Source of the DNA: Caballeronia sordidicola
GTDB taxonomy: Bacteria; Pseudomonadota; Gammaproteobacteria; Burkholderiales; Burkholderiaceae
Direction: 5' to 3'
Assembly: GCF_000729995.1 (NCBI RefSeq)
Contig: NZ_JNFG01000032.1
Coordinates: 1-64,000, forward strand
DNA: 64,000 nt
The notes beneath the pieces are model-generated. The model was given only the letters and a program-made list of their open reading frames with translations, had not been told where the DNA came from and did not search any database. The position numbers were made by a program, and so were the translations under genes. Shown one piece after another: positions 22,289 to 29,605 of the stretch; the first letter of the stretch is position 1, and each line of letters begins with the position of its first letter.

Positions 22289-22972
22289 ATGAAAACGGCA
22301 AGCAAAGTTGGAGCGCCGGGCCGTTCGGGTCATGTGCTTAAGGCACCGGACATCAAACGAAAGTACGACCCGGAACAAACCAAACGAAACATTATCGACA
22401 TCGCGACCGAGGAGTTCGCGGCGATGGGTTTAAGCGGCGCACGGGTCGACGCCATTGCGGAACGCACCAATACAACGAAGCGCATGTTGTATTACTACTT
22501 CGGCAGCAAGGAAGGGCTGTACGAAGCGGTCTTGGAGGAGGCGTACGGCAAGATCCGCGCGCTTGAACAGTCGCTGCATCTCAATACCAAAGACCCGCGC
22601 GAGGGTTTGCGTGAGCTCGTCGAATTCACGTTCGACTTCCACGATAAACACCGCGATTTCGTCCGTCTCGTGACCATCGAAAACATTCATGGGGCGAAGT
22701 ACGTCAGCCAGTTGAAGACCTTCAGGACGCGCAATGCGAGTGTGGTGAAAACCATCGCGGACCTGATCACTCGCGGCGTGGCGGCGCGGCAGTTTCGTGG
22801 CGATATTGACCCTGTCGATCTCCATCTGTTTATCAGTTCGCTGTGTTTTCATCGCGTCGCGAACCGGCATACATTCACCGCCGCTTTCGGGCGCGATCCA
22901 TCCGGCGCGAGATCGCGGGCCCGGCATCGCCAGATGATTGTCGACGCGGTCATGCGGTTCATGCAGCGTTAA
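22289..22972 (+). CDS. TetR family transcriptional regulator
   Basis: 227 residues. N-terminal TetR HTH: EQTKRNIIDIATEEFAAMGLSGARVDAIAERTNTTKRMLYYYFGSKEGLYEAVLEEAY, followed by an all-helical ligand/dimerisation domain. The N-terminus carries an extra basic tail of about 25 residues. Usually a repressor released by a small ligand; no obvious adjacent target gene. No clear ribosome site before the ATG. Confidence 0.92.
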   Translation: MKTASKVGAPGRSGHVLKAPDIKRKYDPEQTKRNIIDIATEEFAAMGLSGARVDAIAERTNTTKRMLYYYFGSKEGLYEAVLEEAYGKIRALEQSLHLNTKDPREGLRELVEFTFDFHDKHRDFVRLVTIENIHGAKYVSQLKTFRTRNASVVKTIADLITRGVAARQFRGDIDPVDLHLFISSLCFHRVANRHTFTAAFGRDPSGARSRARHRQMIVDAVMRFMQR

Positions 22973-23108
22973 GTTGATCGGCAGTTGCGCTGCGCGAAGA
23001 ACGCCCCGGCCAACATGCCACGAGCGGATTTAATGCGCTGCCCACGCTCCGATTCTGGACGGGTGAACTATGCTTTAACCATGGCAGTCGACCGAAAAGG
23101 AGGACGCC

Positions 23109-23276
23109 ATGGAGGGTTTAGCGAATATCCTCGTCGGGCTGGCGGCGCTTGCCGCGCTCGCGATCGCCGTGCTGGCGCACGATTGGCGTGACGAATTCCG
23201 CGATCGCATGCTGCGCCGCCGCAGTCACGCCGGGTATGGCACGTTACGCGAGTGGTGGCTTCGGCACCGCCATTGA
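23109..23276 (+). CDS. Small membrane protein (55 residues)
   Basis: 55 residues with one hydrophobic helix (ILVGLAALAALAIAVLA) near the N-terminus and a strongly basic, Trp/Arg/His-rich tail. It has one of the strongest ribosome sites in the window (AAAAGGAGG), which is the main support that it is real. Function unknown; probably inner membrane with the basic tail in the cytoplasm. Confidence 0.6.
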   Translation: MEGLANILVGLAALAALAIAVLAHDWRDEFRDRMLRRRSHAGYGTLREWWLRHRH

Positions 23277-23293
23277 GCGTCTGCGTGACCGGT

Positions 23294-23662
23294 TTAAGAG
23301 CGGTCTTTCCTGAACGGACGAGCGGGGGCCGCCTGCAGGACCATGCGTGGCACTGAAGTTATCCGCGACTTTCGATCGGGCGTGAGTTCGGGCGCGGTAT
23401 CGAGTGTCCGGTTGCCGGCCTCGCAGGCGTCGATCTGCAGATACAGCCGATGAATCGTCTGGAGCTGCGTGTGCGAAAGATGCGAGCTTCGCGCGAGCAG
23501 TGCAAGCCGTTCGCGCCAGTAGGTCGGCGGCATGATGGGGCACAACGCGTCGTCGAGCAGTGAACGCCGCAGCACCAGCTCTAGGTGCGTCAGTTCCTGG
23601 TCTGCCATCAGCGCGGAGGGCGCGCCCTGGAGTTTCATGTCGATGTCGAGGACGGAGGTCAT
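23294..23662 (-). CDS. Hypothetical protein with sigma-28-type promoter
   Basis: 122 residues, soluble. The central part (ELTHLELVLRRSLLDDALCPIMPPTYWRERL and then LSHTQLQTIHRLYLQID) looks like a helical domain; the C-terminus is basic and disordered. No family recognised. The ATG lies 6 bases after a FliA-like -10 element, so its mRNA may be nearly leaderless, as for the three small paralogues at 24986, 25284 and 25663. An adjacent in-frame TTG is an alternative start. Confidence 0.62.
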   Translation of the reverse strand: MTSVLDIDMKLQGAPSALMADQELTHLELVLRRSLLDDALCPIMPPTYWRERLALLARSSHLSHTQLQTIHRLYLQIDACEAGNRTLDTAPELTPDRKSRITSVPRMVLQAAPARPFRKDRS

Positions 23663-23668
23663 CAATGC

Positions 23669-23695
23669 CTAACGGCATCGATGATTAAACCTTTA
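23669..23695 (-). promoter_or_regulatory. Sigma-28 (FliA)-type promoter
   Basis: On the minus strand TAAAGGTT, 11 bases, GCCGTTAG, against the FliA consensus TAAAGTTT-N11-GCCGATAA. It ends 6 bases before the ATG of the gene at 23662. Confidence 0.65.
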
Positions 23696-23732
23696 GCGAA
23701 TTTCGGGTTGGTACAAACCCTTATTAGGCAGT

Positions 23733-24131
23733 TTATTGGATGGGTCTTTCCACTGCCCGGTCCAAGTCGGCGCGCGCCCGGTTCACCTTGCGCTCCCAGG
23801 CCGCTATGTTCAGCTGATCCGTGCCCTTTTTCCTGGCACGCTCCAATTCCGCTTCCCAGTCACGCAAACGATTCTTGGCCTCGGCCACGGCGCTGTCGTG
23901 GCGTCTCACTGCGTCTGCGCGTTTTTGCGCGATCGCGTCGGGCGTGCATTCGGCGTTGGTCTTGTTGAGGTCGGCTTGCAGGGCGTCGAGTTGCGCCGTG
24001 TTGTCCTGGTTCAGCGCGGTAGCCATCTGCCGTTCGAGGGCCTGGCGATGGGCATCGCAGGCATCGGTTTCCTGTGAGGCATGAGCGGTCGACAAACACA
24101 GGCTTAAGGCGACGGCGGCAAGCAATTTCAT
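23733..24131 (-). CDS. DUF1090 family periplasmic protein (YqjC-like)
   Basis: 132 residues. A cleavable signal (MKLLAAVALSLCLSTAHA) is followed by a highly charged, Ala/Arg/Glu-rich coiled-coil. The early pattern C-D-A-H-R-Q-A-L-E-R-Q and Cys before P-D-A-I match DUF1090. Probably periplasmic, role unknown. A tandem decamer repeat lies in its upstream region. Confidence 0.8.
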   Translation of the reverse strand: MKLLAAVALSLCLSTAHASQETDACDAHRQALERQMATALNQDNTAQLDALQADLNKTNAECTPDAIAQKRADAVRRHDSAVAEAKNRLRDWEAELERARKKGTDQLNIAAWERKVNRARADLDRAVERPIQ

Positions 24132-24170
24132 AGCGGAATCCGTGGCTGACGAGATTGGGCAGGGTGCAAA

Positions 24171-24191
24171 CGGTACTTAATCGGTACTTAA
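24171..24191. repeat. Tandem decamer CGGTACTTAA, operator-like
   Basis: Two exact copies of CGGTACTTAA separated by one base, so placed on the same DNA face (11-base period), about 40-60 bases upstream of the DUF1090 ATG. It may be a direct-repeat operator; no matching regulator is known. The rest of the gap 24132-24411 shows no gene. Confidence 0.4.
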
Positions 24192-24411
24192 CTTGTACGA
24201 GATGTTCTTTTGTTCGGTCGGGACGGATATTGAATAACGCTCGCGCATTTATTCGTCCGGCCAAAGGTCGGCGTATTTTAACGAGTTTGTGGGGACCGAT
24301 GGGAGCAATGCGATGGCTGGTAATGCCTTGTTCTGCGTCGATGCGGAACGCGTCTTGCGCGAACCTGTTTGGAACTGGCCAAACGTTTACATTTTTGCGA
24401 GGAATACGCCG

Positions 24412-24633
24412 ATGCGTTTCGATTACAAGGGCTTTCACATCGACTGTCGCTCACGACACGATCAAGATGGCTTGTACTACGCGCAGGCTCGCATGATCCA
24501 CATGCCGACAGCGGACGACGCGCATCCGGAAAAACACGAATCAGGCGATATCGATGCGTTCGATAACGACGGCGATGCCATCGCGTGCGCTCGGGCGTGG
24601 GCGCTCGACTGGTGCGACGAGCACGAAGCCTGA
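24412..24633 (+). CDS. Small acidic hypothetical protein
   Basis: 73 residues starting MRFDYKGFHIDCRSRHD, with an acidic middle and Trp/Cys near the end (ALDWCDEHEA). Soluble. Ribosome site GAGGAATAC. Followed 43 bases later by another small gene in the same direction with a similar build (short beta-rich start, helical end). No family recognised. Confidence 0.65.
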   Translation: MRFDYKGFHIDCRSRHDQDGLYYAQARMIHMPTADDAHPEKHESGDIDAFDNDGDAIACARAWALDWCDEHEA

Positions 24634-24676
24634 CGGCGTCATCATGCTAGGATCGCGTCCTGCCAAGGGAGAAGCC

Positions 24677-24880
24677 ATGCGTTATATGCACAATGAACAT
24701 GTCATCGACGTGTTCGTCGAACAACGCGGCACCCGCTGGGACTGGTCCGTGCAGGCGGGCAGCTTGCCGCTGAAGACGAATGCCGGAGAGATGGCGCCGA
24801 CCAGCAATGTCGCCGAAAACGAAGCGCTGCACTGGGCGAAGCGTGAGTTGAACCGACGCTTTCCGGTTGAGCCGGAGTGA
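24677..24880 (+). CDS. Small hypothetical protein
   Basis: 67 residues with a beta-rich first half (HVIDVFVEQRGTRWDWSVQAG) and a helical end (ENEALHWAKRELNRRF). Ribosome site AAGGGAG. Likely an operon with the gene 43 bases upstream. No function assigned. Confidence 0.65.
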   Translation: MRYMHNEHVIDVFVEQRGTRWDWSVQAGSLPLKTNAGEMAPTSNVAENEALHWAKRELNRRFPVEPE

Positions 24881-24951
24881 CGGGTTGTTGGTTCGAACTT
24901 GTTCACGCGTGCTGCTCCGCGCTGCTGCTCAACGCATGCGGAATGCGGGCT

Positions 24952-24978
24952 TAAAGTTCCTTGCAGCGGCGCCGTTAG
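24952..24978 (+). promoter_or_regulatory. Sigma-28 (FliA)-type promoter, paralogue 1
   Basis: TAAAGTTC, 11 bases, GCCGTTAG; seven bases then separate it from the ATG. It differs from the FliA consensus TAAAGTTT-N11-GCCGATAA at three positions. Confidence 0.7.
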
Positions 24979-24985
24979 TGTTGGC

Positions 24986-25159
24986 ATGAATACTAAACAA
25001 CCCACCCCAGAAGCCTCCCGCGATCTCATCCGAGCTGCGGGTGAAACGCTCGAACTGATCTGCCGCCTGCGTGGGGTTGATATCGAAGAGCTCTCCGATG
25101 ACGAGCTCAACGAGTTCTTTTCCAATGCACTTGGCGATGACATCATCGGCCCCTGGTGA
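24986..25159 (+). CDS. LCRLR-family small protein, paralogue 1
   Basis: 57 residues. Core shared with the genes at 25284 and 25663: A-A/G-x-E-x-L-x-x-[LI]-C-R-L-R, about six residues, [LI]-S-D/E, then L-x-x-F-F and A-L-x-D-D/E. This predicts two short helices around a conserved C-R-L-R and an acidic end. There is no Shine-Dalgarno sequence; the ATG lies at the expected transcription start of a sigma-28-type promoter, so translation is probably leaderless. Function unknown. Confidence 0.72.
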   Translation: MNTKQPTPEASRDLIRAAGETLELICRLRGVDIEELSDDELNEFFSNALGDDIIGPW

Positions 25160-25249
25160 GTGGGAAGGACTGCGTGCGGGAACAGGAAGTCGCGCTGTGA
25201 ATCCGCCATGGATCGCAGGGCGTGGTTTTGCAGGGTTTCAGCGACGCAT

Positions 25250-25276
25250 TAAAGCGTCCTCGACCCGTACCGTTAT
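25250..25276 (+). promoter_or_regulatory. Sigma-28-like promoter, paralogue 2
   Basis: TAAAGCGT, 11 bases, ACCGTTAT, then seven bases to the ATG. It is a weaker consensus match than its two neighbours, but every spacing is identical. Confidence 0.5.
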
Positions 25277-25283
25277 TTCGCTT

Positions 25284-25475
25284 ATGAAACTCGACAAGCT
25301 CTCTTATACCGATACCCGCATCGCACTAAATGCCGCCGACGAAGCGTTGGAATTGCTTTGCCGCCTGAGGCAGATTCCGCTCAATAGTTTGTCGGATGCG
25401 CAATTGGGCGAGTTCTTTTTCAATGCGCTTGAAGATGAGCTCGGTGGTGGGGCTTATATCGGTGGGCGAATCTAG
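25284..25475 (+). CDS. LCRLR-family small protein, paralogue 2
   Basis: 63 residues, most divergent at both ends, but the core A-A-D-E-A-L-E-L-L-C-R-L-R, then S-L-S-D and F-F-F-N-A-L-E-D-E-L is clear. The tail is longer and glycine-rich. As in its paralogues there is no ribosome site and the ATG lies seven bases after a -10-like element. An upstream extension of the frame would cover the promoter and does not resemble the paralogues. Confidence 0.7.
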   Translation: MKLDKLSYTDTRIALNAADEALELLCRLRQIPLNSLSDAQLGEFFFNALEDELGGGAYIGGRI

Positions 25476-25628
25476 GGATTGTTTTTGACGCCGATGTGGG
25501 CGGTGTTCATCATGCGCGTCGGGTGTTTTTACGCGAGGTGCCTGGGCGCAGACTGCTTACCGGGTATTACCTTGGCGTGCCGTGGTAAGGCTTGATGCGA
25601 CTAATTGAAAATATCGCGCGTGTGGGTC

Positions 25629-25655
25629 TAAAGTTTCGTCAGTAGAGGCCGTTAG
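25629..25655 (+). promoter_or_regulatory. Sigma-28 (FliA)-type promoter, paralogue 3
   Basis: TAAAGTTT, 11 bases, GCCGTTAG: perfect -35, two mismatches in the -10 against GCCGATAA, seven bases to the ATG. Best FliA match in the window. Confidence 0.75.
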
Positions 25656-25662
25656 CGGATGC

Positions 25663-25839
25663 ATGAACACGACCAACCCCACCGCCACCGCGTTTCGCAA
25701 TCTCGTCATTGCTGCTGACGAGACCCTCCACGTGCTTTGCCGCCTGCGCGGTATTACGATCGACGATTTGTCGGAGGAAGCACTGGAAACGTTTTTCTTC
25801 CAGGCACTCGATGACGAATTCTGGATCGGTGCGCAGTAA
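25663..25839 (+). CDS. LCRLR-family small protein, paralogue 3
   Basis: 58 residues, easily missed because of its size. It aligns without gaps to the core of the two preceding small genes: A-A-D-E-T-L-H-V-L-C-R-L-R-G, then D-L-S-E-E and F-F-F-Q-A-L-D-D-E-F. Upstream DNA also aligns with paralogue 1 (CTAAAGTT ... GCCGTTAG), so the duplicated unit included its promoter. No Shine-Dalgarno; probably leaderless. Function unknown. A longer antisense frame here is a shadow. Confidence 0.72.
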   Translation: MNTTNPTATAFRNLVIAADETLHVLCRLRGITIDDLSEEALETFFFQALDDEFWIGAQ

Positions 25840-25922
25840 GTCGGTGTGCGCCGCGGTAAGTAGCAGAGCGCACTGATATCCGCCGGCATCGGACGGCGGC
25901 TTCTCCCTTTCTTCCTTCTTTT

Positions 25923-26183
25923 CTACGCCAGCAGGTCAGGCCGTCGTGTGAAGCGCGGTTCGTCCAGCCACGCGACAAACTCATCACGCCACTGCTCGAA
26001 AGCGTTCTCGTCCAGGTCGAACACTTCATCGACATGGCCGGCGTCACGCAAGTAGGCGCCCACCACCTGACGCCCGTTCCAATAAGCAACTGCAAAATCG
26101 GTCAGGTCCGCGGTCACGCCGCGCGGCTGATCGCGAAGCAGCATGTTGAGTTGAGCCCTGAAAACGGTAAAGGTCGTGGCCAT
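25923..26183 (-). CDS. Hypothetical protein, 86 residues
   Basis: Soluble, mixed composition, with a pattern F-A-V-A-Y-W-N-G-R-Q-V-V-G-A-Y-L and an acidic, Trp-rich end. No family recognised. The ATG at 26183 gives the cleaner N-terminus (ATTFTVFRAQLNMLL); a GTG nine codons upstream is possible. It converges on the small paralogue genes. Confidence 0.55.
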   Translation of the reverse strand: MATTFTVFRAQLNMLLRDQPRGVTADLTDFAVAYWNGRQVVGAYLRDAGHVDEVFDLDENAFEQWRDEFVAWLDEPRFTRRPDLLA

Positions 26184-26363
26184 GGTCGGGTCCCGGAGAA
26201 AAATCGACACCCTGAGAGGCGAAACAGGGCTCGCTAAGAGTAGCGCTTTCCGGGGCCTTCGTGCAGTGGGATAAGCGGTCCAGGTCGCTTAAGCGCGCGG
26301 CTTGGCGGTGTTGGTGTCGGGATAGATACCGGCACAATGCCGCCGGACGATAGCGGCAGCGAA

Positions 26364-26394
26364 AAGCCCCGTAGCGCAAGGCTTACGGGGCTTG
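26364..26394 (-). terminator. Terminator after tRNA-Arg
   Basis: Stem AAGCCCCGTA / TACGGGGCTT followed by TTTT on the minus strand, about 33 bases past the tRNA 3' end. Confidence 0.75.
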
Positions 26395-26426
26395 GAGATT
26401 CGGTGAGACGGTGTGGGATGCAGCGA

Positions 26427-26501
26427 TGGTCCCCCCGGCAGGAATCGAACCTGCATCTAGCGCTTAGGAGGCACTTGTTCTATCCATTGAACTACGGGGA
26501 G
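26427..26501 (-). tRNA. tRNA-Arg (anticodon CCU)
   Basis: 75 bases including an encoded 3' CCA. The acceptor stem (CTCCCCG with CGGGGGG, one wobble), the D arm, the anticodon stem AGTGC/GCGCT with loop CTCCTAA giving anticodon CCT, and the T arm CAGG-TTCGATT-CCTG all pair. It reads the rare AGG codon. Such tRNA genes are frequent island insertion sites, and accessory genes do follow upstream of it, but no integrase is seen. Confidence 0.95.
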
Positions 26502-26887
26502 ATGGATATTTCAGTGGGCGGACCCAAGCCTTGAGGATACCGGCTTTGGCCTTGCCCAATGTACGCTTTCGGCTGATTTGCTTCTTCCTAAACGAAGCGC
26601 CGTGACGCACTGTGAACCTATGTATTTCTCGACCTTGCCGCCGAACAACGGTTTCGGGGCAAAGACTACGGCGTCGATTTTACCCGTCGCCGAACGCTGG
26701 CGAGCATAGATCCGGTGCAGCGGGCAGAGTATATCAAAGACGTTTAAATCCTAAGTGCGGCTCTGGCGTGGACGCGCGGCGTTCGCTCGAAACTCGTGGT
26801 GTCGCCGATCGTCCGGTAGATTGCGGAGTGACAACAGGCTGCGGAACGTTCCATCATGCGATGAAGCTTCCAATGTGAGGTCGCACT
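26502..26887. other. Intergenic region with a possible gene remnant
   Basis: 386 bases between the tRNA and the SRAP gene. Plus-strand bases 26619-26747 give 42 open codons of protein-like composition ending in a stop, without a usable start and with a stop just upstream. This could be the 3' remnant of a lost gene. Nothing else is recognised. Confidence 0.3.
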
Positions 26888-27847
26888 ATGTGCTATTCGG
26901 CGCAGATCGTGGCGGACTACCGCAAGTACGTGAAGATGTTCGGTCCTGACATCGATATCAGGGAGTTCGCGCGACTCTACTGGGAGCGTGTCCAGGGCAG
27001 CGGCGCGAAGATTGCCAAGGGCATGGATGTGACCTTCATGAATCCGGAAACAGAGGATGAGCGCGGTATCAAGGAGCTGATCGAGCGATATGACTCAACT
27101 CAGATAACGAAGCTTGAACAGGAATTGTTCAAGCAGCGCACACGGCTCGCTGATGCAGAGCGCACACTCCAGACGAAAACCACAAAGGCGGCGATCGAGA
27201 GCAAACGGATCGGCGCTAGCAAGATCGATGGCACGATGCGCCGGCTCGACGACCTGCGTCGAACAGAACCAGCGGAGCGTGACTCGCGGATATTCCCCGG
27301 TCAATACGCTCCCGTCATGGTGATGGAGAATGGTCGGCGCGTCATTAAGCCGATGCGCTATCAATGCAGGCCGGCGGGCAAGCCCGCGATCTACGACGTG
27401 AAATACCCCGGAACCTACAACGCGCGGCGGGACAACCTGGAGGGTTTCTGGAAGGAGCTTTTTGGTTATACGCACGGCCTGATGCTAGTGACCGCATTCT
27501 ACGAAAACGTCAATCGGTCTCGGCTCGAAAATCGCGTGCCGCTTGAGGGGGAGAAAGATGAAAACGTGGTCCTGGAATTCAGGCCTAACCCGCCTCAAGA
27601 AATGCTGATCGCGTGCCTGTGGTCGCACTGGAAAGGGAAGGGCGATCCTGACCTGCTGTCGTTCGCGGCCATCACAGACGACCCACCGCAGGAAATAGCG
27701 CTTGCCGGCCACGACCGCTGCATCATCCCCATCAAGCCTGAACACATCGACGCGTGGCTCAATCCAGATCCTGCGAACCTCGTGGCTCAGCACGCCATTC
27801 TCGACGACCGCAACCGACCCTATTACGAATACCGGATGGCGGCCTGA
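26888..27847 (+). CDS. Long SRAP-domain protein (HMCES/YedK type)
   Basis: 319 residues. SRAP proteins crosslink to abasic sites in single-stranded DNA through Cys2. All four key positions are visible: Cys2 (start M-C-Y-S), N178 in Y-N-A-R, E206 in A-F-Y-E and H275 in G-H-D-R. YedK has about 220 residues; here roughly 100 extra residues between Cys2 and the Asn motif form a charged coiled-coil-like segment (residues ~60-125, KLEQELFKQR and on). Ribosome site GTGAGG. It lies next to a tRNA and an IS remnant, suggesting a transferred gene. Confidence 0.83.
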   Translation: MCYSAQIVADYRKYVKMFGPDIDIREFARLYWERVQGSGAKIAKGMDVTFMNPETEDERGIKELIERYDSTQITKLEQELFKQRTRLADAERTLQTKTTKAAIESKRIGASKIDGTMRRLDDLRRTEPAERDSRIFPGQYAPVMVMENGRRVIKPMRYQCRPAGKPAIYDVKYPGTYNARRDNLEGFWKELFGYTHGLMLVTAFYENVNRSRLENRVPLEGEKDENVVLEFRPNPPQEMLIACLWSHWKGKGDPDLLSFAAITDDPPQEIALAGHDRCIIPIKPEHIDAWLNPDPANLVAQHAILDDRNRPYYEYRMAA

Positions 27848-27923
27848 ACCAGCTCGCTGTTATGTTGAGGATAGAACGACCCGGAGCGGTGCCGAACAAG
27901 CACGTTTCTCGGCACACGGGAAA

Positions 27924-28730
27924 TGACCAAATGACTTTGGTCGTATCTGTTCGGCGGCGGATTGAACCGGTCGACGCAATCGTTTGCGGGAATTGTTCTG
28001 CTGGCGTTTCGTAGTCCAAGGTTTTTCTCAGACGCTCCTTCAATCGTCTCGCCACGGCATTGAGTTCGGCCTGTGCAATACACTGACAGGTCGGTACCTT
28101 GGACAAATACCGCCTCAATAGCCCGTTCGCATTTTCGTAGGATCCGCGCTGCCATGGCTGGTGGGGATCGCAGAAATAAACCTTCATATCAGTGGCCATG
28201 GTGAAACGTTTGCGCCCGGTCATTTCCGTTCCCCGATCCTATGTCATCGACTTATAGGGCGCCTGCGGTAACTTGTACGGATTCCTGATGAGTGCATTGA
28301 TGACCGTCTCGCTATCCTCGCTGGGGATCTTAACCAGCATGACGTAGCGTGTTTGGCCTTCGACGCGCGCCGCTATCTGGCCGCTGCCACTACCGCACAG
28401 CAAATCGCCTTCCCAGTGGCCCGCTACGGCGCGGTCTTCAACTGCGGGGGGGCGTTCGCTGCTCGATACCGTGTCGCGAATCCTGCCGTCTTCTGCGTGT
28501 GGTGCCGCGAACGGCACATAGCCCGAGTACGCCGCCGGTGCTCCGGCAACTCCTTCTTCAGGGCACCACGTGCCTATATGAAGAGAGCGCGATAGAGACA
28601 GTCTCGTGGTAGTCCTCATTGTCCGGGTACGCGCGCTTGAGCCATCCGGCAATCTGCTGCGGCGAGCACTGCAGCAAATTGCCTGCCACGCTGTGCGCCA
28701 GCATCCGGTGCTCAATCGGTTCATCTGTGC
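27924..28730 (-). pseudogene. IS30-family transposase remnant
   Basis: Minus-strand pieces in different frames match an IS30 DDE transposase: an N-terminal part around E-P-I-E-H-R-M-L, then A-G-H-W-E-G-D-L with the first catalytic Asp, TRYVMLVKIP, D-R-G-T-E-M with the second Asp, FCDPHQPWQRGSYENANGLLR with the Glu, and ETPAEQF near the end. It is dead: a TGG-to-TAG change just before D-R-G-T-E-M (28239-28241), a compensated frameshift pair near 28080-28105, a further shift near 28600, and the HTH region is missing. A palindrome GACCAAA-TGAC-TTTGGTC (27924-27941) lies at the 3' end. Confidence 0.82.
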
Positions 28731-28825
28731 GAATTCGTACGGAAGACTACACAATTTTCCGCCAAGGTTCGTAAGACGCGTATGAACTCGCATTTCGCTG
28801 TCAAAACAAGACCAAGAGAAAATAG

Positions 28826-29605
28826 ATGACCGCATTGAATGACGCGTTGCCGCTCGACGGATTCTTACCGGTGAGCGTCGAGAGCGCGCAGGCACTGGCC
28901 GAATCAATGGACGATTCCGGCGTAGGGATACTGCATGATGTCGTGCCGGAAGCGATTCTCACGCAGATGCGCAGTTTCGTCGCTCAGCAGATCGAGCAGC
29001 ATAGCGGCCAATATTTCGGCCTTGAAGGCGAGGCATGGATCGCCGATACCTGCCTCAATCCGCTATTTGAGGACGCGGGCTTTCGCGCGCTATTGCGATC
29101 TCTTTACGAACGGAAGATGCGCGCATCGCCGCCCAGCGACCGGATTTTTCCCGTTCTGCGCGGGCTGACCGGCACGCACGGGCTGCGTCACGCGCTCAAC
29201 TTTCACTACGACTCGTATGTTGTAACCGTACTGCTGCCGATTTTGATCCCCAACGGCCCGGATGAACCCCGAGGCCATCTGATCATGTTCCCGAATTTAC
29301 GCGAAGCGAGGCGCTTTGCGATTGTCAACATCCTCGAAAAACTAATGGTAGAAAGATTGCTGAAGCGGACGTGGCGTTTGCCGCGCGTGCAACGATGGCT
29401 TTCAGCGAAAATCGTGCCGCTGACGCCGGGCAATCTCTACTTCTTCTGGGGCATGCGTTCATTCCACGCGAACGAGGCCTGCCTGCCGTCCAGCGTACGC
29501 TGTACCGCACTGCTGCATTTCGGTGATCCGCACGAGGGCAATGTGTTCAAAGGTATCTCCCAGCGTTTGCACGTAATGAGACTGCGGCGCATGGCGCGAG
29601 ACTAG
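28826..29605 (+). CDS. Putative 2OG-Fe(II) oxygenase
   Basis: 259 residues, soluble. A possible iron triad is visible: H127-x-D129 in F-H-Y-D-S-Y and H214 in S-F-H-A-N-E, followed 11 residues later by R225, which could bind 2-oxoglutarate. This matches phytanoyl-CoA or prolyl-hydroxylase-like folds, with the beta segment V-V-T-V-L-L-P-I-L after the H-x-D. Substrate unknown. It lies directly after the IS30 remnant, and no clear ribosome site is seen, so it may be a late arrival. Confidence 0.62.
   Translation: MTALNDALPLDGFLPVSVESAQALAESMDDSGVGILHDVVPEAILTQMRSFVAQQIEQHSGQYFGLEGEAWIADTCLNPLFEDAGFRALLRSLYERKMRASPPSDRIFPVLRGLTGTHGLRHALNFHYDSYVVTVLLPILIPNGPDEPRGHLIMFPNLREARRFAIVNILEKLMVERLLKRTWRLPRVQRWLSAKIVPLTPGNLYFFWGMRSFHANEACLPSSVRCTALLHFGDPHEGNVFKGISQRLHVMRLRRMARD

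Follow-up and report, generated by a model that had tools for sequence, protein, structure and literature searches.

How are genes of some sixty codons expressed when each carries a promoter of its own ending a few bases before the start codon? This question is raised by a locus of Caballeronia sordidicola. The window analysed here, 64,000 nucleotides of this bacterium's DNA, comes from an assembly (G000) about 10.3 Mb in size. On its plus strand, at positions 24952-25839, lie three small paralogous genes of 57, 63 and 58 aa, each with its own sigma-28-type promoter. A first-pass annotation had described them as three tandem paralogues with identically spaced sigma-28-type promoters, and direct reading of the window bears this out. 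Judging from the promoter layout and its conservation, these genes, which we call CRLR genes, are likely to be sigma-28-driven, leaderless or nearly leaderless late genes of the FliA regulon.

Layout of the locus

In copy 1, the -35 element TAAAGTTC (24952..24959), read directly and kept in orthologues, is followed after 11 nt by the -10 element GCCGTTAG (24971..24978), and a further 7 nt lead to the ATG of the 57-aa gene (24986..25159), which is predicted to be leaderless. The same 11 and 7 nt are found in copy 2 between its -35 element TAAAGCGT (25250..25257, again a direct reading), its -10 element ACCGTTAT (25269..25276) and the 63-aa gene (25284..25475); the -10 of this copy reads GCCGTTA in L002, L006 and L007. 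Copy 3 repeats the arrangement with TAAAGTTT (25629..25636, also read directly), GCCGTTAG (25648..25655) and a gene of 58 aa (25663..25839). Common to all three is an 8-base -35 starting with TAAAG, 11 nt, (G/A)CCGTTA, 8 nt and ATG. The last distance depends on how the box is defined, being 7 nt after the 8-mer GCCGTTAG and 8 nt after CCGTTA. Thus the 7 nt given in the first-pass annotation stands when counted from the 8-base -10, whereas its total of 35 bases has to be corrected, as TAAAG starts 34 nt before the A of the ATG.

Taken by itself, the bare motif is weak evidence, because TAAAG-N15-CCGWTA occurs at 32 sites in the whole genome and the same pattern read backwards at 21, a ratio of only 1.5. 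Flanking sequence was retrieved for 30 of the genome sites, and at four of them an ORF of 45 codons or more starts with an ATG 7-8 nt downstream of the pattern. The four belong to copies 1-3 and a fourth gene, all inside about 2 kb of the window. The fourth gene, absent from the earlier description of the locus, is divergent and lies 1.3 kb from the cluster on the minus strand. Its -35 element TAAAGGTT (23688..23695) and -10 element GCCGTTAG (23669..23676) precede an ORF for a 122-aa protein to which no family is assigned (23294..23662, ATG at 23662), and which is predicted to be leaderless or nearly so. The promoter is the same, but GCCGTTA ends 7 rather than 8 nt before the ATG. Both the promoter and the 7-nt spacing are kept in eight of ten named loci (L001-L008; the box of L008 is GCCGTTT).

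As for the surroundings, a gene for an SOS response-associated peptidase (SRAP, PF02586) lies downstream of the three-gene cluster at 26888-27847. On the minus strand at 27759-28907, ORFs resembling transposases occupy two frames, as if an insertion element, presumably one resembling IS30, had been disrupted. A terminator scan found 5 candidates against a shuffle mean of 3.9.

Spacing between promoter and start codon

Close relatives of copy 1 occur at ten named loci, all of them from Caballeronia or from strains filed as Burkholderia sp., and the paralogues there mostly retain TAAAG-N15-CCGTTA-N8-ATG. Members were then defined more widely as distinct ATG-started ORFs matching the CRLR core, the ATG being a condition of selection. 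The first-pass annotation had made its reading depend on conservation of the promoter-to-ATG spacing in homologues, and this is what was found: in 67 of the 72 members the -10 ends exactly 8 nt before the ATG, in three it ends 11 nt before it, and two have no recognisable box. The 72 do not include a copy 2 that starts with GTG and whose -10 has decayed to GCCCTTA (L004/L055), nor the divergent homologues in G092 and G002, in which no box could be recognised. The -10 boxes of the 67 members at 8 nt are GCCGNTA in 65, ACCGTTA in one and GCCATTA in one, and their -35 elements start with TAAAG (57), TCAAG (7), TTAAG (2) or TCAAA (1). All three 11-nt members (G043, G015, G056), as well as a broken copy in G044, carry an extra ATC directly before the start, so that the distance from box to ATC is again 8; of the two box-less members, one is a decayed copy 2 (L063) and the other an ORF from the G044 locus.

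Most genomes beyond the C. sordidicola group have a single distant copy (MRKKRL... or a similar sequence), and in many of these copies the -35 and -10 are one base further apart, with the -10 still 8 nt from the ATG. Among members as a whole, the gap alternates between N14 and N15 before GCCG, and since it varies by one base, it is the -10-to-ATG distance that looks constrained. Across 66 distinct upstream stretches (36 N14, 30 N15), column information peaks at TAAAGTT, at GCCGNTA and at the base before the ATG, reaching 1.6-1.8 bits. Between the boxes it is mostly low in the N14 group; the N15 group shows higher conservation over its whole length, as its closer relationship would lead one to expect. 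In the 58 genomes of the genus, a pattern with N15-16 before GCCG, which misses the N14 copies, was matched 50 times, against once for its backwards version.

A fixed distance of this size suggests where transcription may begin. Extracts from a study of Campylobacter jejuni (PMC3847290) put mapped starts 6-8 nt downstream of the sigma-28 -10 (CGATwt), and the equivalent hexamer of the CRLR family ends 7 nt before the ATG. In the mechanism we propose, FliA-RNA polymerase would bind TAAAG-N14/15-GCCGNTA and, with the -10 held 8 nt from the ATG, would start transcription at a pyrimidine-A step, on the A of the ATG itself or no more than about one base away. The resulting mRNA would have neither a leader nor a Shine-Dalgarno (SD) site, so that ribosomes would have to initiate on the 5'-terminal AUG, and each paralogue would be a promoter-plus-gene unit of its own. 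The absence of SD sites, which the first-pass annotation had noted as well, extends to the family: in all 67 members at 8 nt, the 12-nt stretch spanning -16 to -5 contains no SD-like tetramer. The base preceding the ATG in these members is C in 64, T in two and G in one. Since C is also the commonest base at this position (24/44) in a control of 44 long genes with an SD-like motif, it supports a start at the A without proving it.

A real promoter could also give rise to RNA that begins a few bases before the ATG, in which case these would be ordinary genes with very short leaders and no SD. We hold this to be unlikely, even though the ATC insertion of one subclade (G043, G015, G056 and the broken G044) implies tolerance of a leader of 3 nt and the fourth gene, with its 7 rather than 8 nt, speaks for it too. 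The sigma-28 -10 position of 6-8 nt given in the same C. jejuni extracts (PMC3847290) would place the start within one base of the ATG on either side, and the pyrimidine before the ATG in 66 of 67 members points the same way.

A transcript starting at or next to the ATG would have precedents. In the leaderless mRNAs of Burkholderia cenocepacia J2315 (PMC4603805) and C. jejuni (PMC3847290), as far as extracts of both studies describe them, the AUG lies at or next to the transcription start and the promoter takes the place of the SD, as is predicted for the CRLR genes. The leaderless-gene promoters in these extracts are of housekeeping type, TA-rich in B. cenocepacia J2315 (PMC4603805) and sigma-70 in C. 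jejuni (PMC3847290), in contrast to the sigma-28-type promoter of the CRLR family.

Two database versions of copy 3 (P0004, P0014) run upstream through the promoter and are 85 rather than 58 aa long. This is an annotation error expected for leaderless genes, and it indicates that ordinary annotation can mishandle such genes.

The sigma-28 assignment and the encoded proteins

The class III (late) flagellar genes, namely fliC, the motA-che operon, tar and flgM, are transcribed by sigma-28/FliA. The consensus of this sigma factor consists of a -35 TAAAG(TTT) and a GCCGATAA-like -10, about 11 nt apart. Both boxes are found in copies 1-3 and in the family, more weakly in copy 2 (TAAAGCGT, ACCGTTAT). 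The same genome, in which the FliA gene lies at G000:C203:71989-72651, offers several yardsticks; of these, motA, motB, che and flgM were named by reading ORF sequences, fliC by a flagellin match and the methyl-accepting chemotaxis protein (MCP) gene by Pfam. Upstream of motA/motB/che (L026/L172), TAAAGATT-N11-GCCGTTAG lies about 325 nt before the motA ORF, and copies 1 and 3 have exactly the same -10. In flgM (L167) the arrangement is TAAAGTTT-N12-GCCGATAA with 29 nt to the ATG, in fliC (L171) it is TCAAGTTT-N11-GCCGCTAA with 98 nt to the ATG and an SD-like AGGAGA, and in the MCP gene (L041) it is TAAAGGTC-N11-GCCGATAT with 29 nt. The close consensus match claimed for copies 1 and 3 in the first-pass annotation is therefore well founded, their -10 being the motA-site box, with close variants at flgM, fliC and the MCP gene. 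Known class III genes and the CRLR family share the -35 TAAAG(TTT), a spacer of 11-12 nt and the -10 GCCGNTA(A/G). They differ in that the yardsticks have leaders (fliC 98 nt, flgM 29 nt, motA site 325 nt), whereas that of the CRLR genes is predicted to be about 0 nt.

As in class III genes, the presence of the CRLR family largely follows FliA. Of the 58 genus genomes, a first search detected the family in 50 and a broader profile (E <= 0.01) in 51, the latter giving no match in G003, G005, G009, G026, G027, G045 and G050. FliA scored above the curated cut-off in 52, being missed in G003, G009, G026, G044, G045 and G050. Taken together, 50 genomes have both, five neither, two FliA only and one the family only (Fisher p = 2.7e-5, a value that overstates independence, because the genomes lacking FliA or the family are all small, at 2.4-4.2 Mb, and losses may be shared). 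In G044, the sole genome with the family only, the copy has ATA in place of ATG, and one of the two with FliA only, G027, is 60% complete and has a TAG within its FliA match. G019, small at 3.9 Mb, retains both.

The first-pass annotation had proposed looking for the arrangement in other Burkholderiaceae. The spacing is indeed conserved, but this scope was too broad: when at most 15 first-look candidates per genome were scored in 398 genomes of the taxonomic family, 53 genomes matched at E <= 0.01, and 51 of these belong to the same genus. Beyond the genus, among the candidates scored, the family is found in G092 (two copies) and doubtfully in G130. The CRLR-like homologues of G092, which belongs to another genus (G092:C71:5008 and G092:C28:1948; L162, L163), have no recognisable sigma-28 box before the ATG.

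Could the boxes be sites of a regulator or sigma factor other than FliA, or be conserved by descent only? The pattern is not strongly enriched genome-wide (32 sites against 21 backwards), and a second small-protein family, described below, has mostly GCCGTAA (16/23) rather than GCCGNTA. Such an origin is nevertheless improbable, given that the same boxes stand at fliC, flgM, the MCP gene and upstream of motA/che in this genome, that presence of the family largely tracks FliA, and that the boxes of the N14 group have stayed the same while what lies between them has drifted.

Turning to the products, copies 1-3 have in common the core A-A-x-E-x-L-x-x-x-C-R-L-R ... F-F-x-x-A-L, with 19 invariant positions including C26-R-L-R and F44-F45...A48-L49, and this core is conserved across two clades. 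AlphaFold2 places helices at residues 8-28 and 38-53 (pLDDT 75, pTM 0.49). Searches with the CRLR protein gave no match in Pfam or NCBIfam up to E 0.1 and a best E of 0.69 against PDB sequences, and a PDB fold search with the modest model (pTM 0.49) gave none at E <= 0.001. The earlier remark that no such protein family had been described thus agrees with the Pfam and NCBIfam results; a literature search of titles and abstract openings, thin on subscription journals, found neither the CRLR family nor leaderless sigma-28 genes. The products are predicted to be two-helix cytosolic proteins with one conserved Cys-Arg-Leu-Arg turn. Speculatively, they might serve as small adaptors or regulators in flagellated cells, a guess from their size and the regulon. 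A midpoint-rooted tree of 68 proteins, without support values, places copies 1, 2 and 3 each with its own orthologues; duplication of the promoter-plus-gene units therefore probably preceded the diversification of the C. sordidicola group.

The CRLR frames are under purifying selection. In three orthologue groups (n = 9, 13 and 20, the first two being those of copies 1 and 3), pN/pS is 0.19, 0.15 and 0.19 over the ORF and 0.33, 0.16 and 0.27 over codons 2-15, so that translation from the first ATG appears to be selected. Short units with their own promoters might be expected of sigma-28-dependent small RNAs with untranslated ORFs, but such loci are very improbable here in view of the pN/pS of 0.15-0.19, the protein core conserved in two clades and an Rfam search of window positions 22900-26600 in which a tRNA was the only match.

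Other genes with the same geometry

In the 58 genomes, TAAAG-N14-GCCGNTA with an ATG 4-11 nt later was matched 118 times, against 29 backwards. By distance from 4 to 11 nt, the matches number 20, 2, 13, 11, 56, 10, 1 and 5; they are not independent, and some at 4 nt are the same sites as those at 8 nt. Seven of the 56 at 8 nt look like one coincidental type, MDKDQLPF, of which five were read. In L201, L203, L210 and L211 the 8-nt ATG is out of frame and the real ORF start, preceded by AGAAGGG, lies 31 nt downstream. In L181 the 8-nt ATG is in frame by chance.

The 8-nt class also contains a second small-protein family, NPHDLP, of 65 aa and the MNxHTLD...IRHARGLKNPHDLP type (G000:C13:77792-77980 [L292], L175, L202 and L272-L291). 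When members of this type were retrieved regardless of promoter, 19 of 20 stood at 8 nt and one at 9, and adding three pattern-found members brings the count to 22 of 23. The -10 of these 23 is GCCGTAA in 16, GCCGATA in four and GCCGTTA in three, and the base before the ATG is T in 21 and C in two. The copy in this genome (G000:C13) has TAAAGTTT-N11-GCCGAAA with 8 nt to an ATG, and that of G044 has lost its -35. NPHDLP resembles the CRLR family in the 8-nt geometry, in size and in an ETxxxIR.ARG-like stretch; it differs in its -10, mostly GCCGTAA, and homology of the two is not supported by profile comparison (probability 0.8%). The NPHDLP family is not a clean marker of FliA, occurring in 56 of 58 genomes and including subtypes such as MDKDQLPF with longer, SD-like leaders.

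The 8-nt geometry is seen again in a third small-protein family, MNKIQ (MNKIQA..., 65-76 aa; L186, L197, L209), in which L197 and L209 had no match in Pfam. It is not confined to small proteins: the ATG of a GT87 glycosyltransferase gene (PF09594; L182:271-1503, L187:1535-2764) lies 8 nt after TAAAG-N14-GCCGATA, and similar sites recur in several other genomes. In other genera, recurring ATGs 7-10 nt past sigma-28-like boxes are in frame in some cases and not in relatives (L226 vs L224; L214/L215 vs L216/L217). Given this inconsistent opening of genes, we do not claim the geometry beyond the genus, and an ATG near a sigma-28-like box is not proof by itself. A further recurring site, TAAAGCTTCC...GCCGTTATA (G000:C24:39582-39619, L118; L119, L121, L122, L124), opens no conserved ORF and may be a sigma-28 promoter that drives a small RNA or a gene whose leader is longer.

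For the genus as a whole, the sites assembled here may outline a leaderless FliA sub-regulon in Caballeronia, a proposal whose chances we judge evenly balanced. It would comprise the CRLR, NPHDLP, MNKIQ and 122-aa families and the GT87 gene, each fixed at 8 nt (7 for the 122-aa family), with sigma-28 polymerase setting the point of ribosome entry and initiation in flagellated cells proceeding independently of an SD. A FliA promoter, a leaderless mRNA and a small protein are each of known kind; their fixed combination, conserved over dozens of species and recurring in a second small-protein family, is new as far as the literature searched shows. If this reading is true, the geometry from sigma-28 to AUG would be a direct link between an alternative sigma factor and translation that needs no SD, and undescribed genes would join the flagellar regulon of a large genus of soil bacteria and symbionts.
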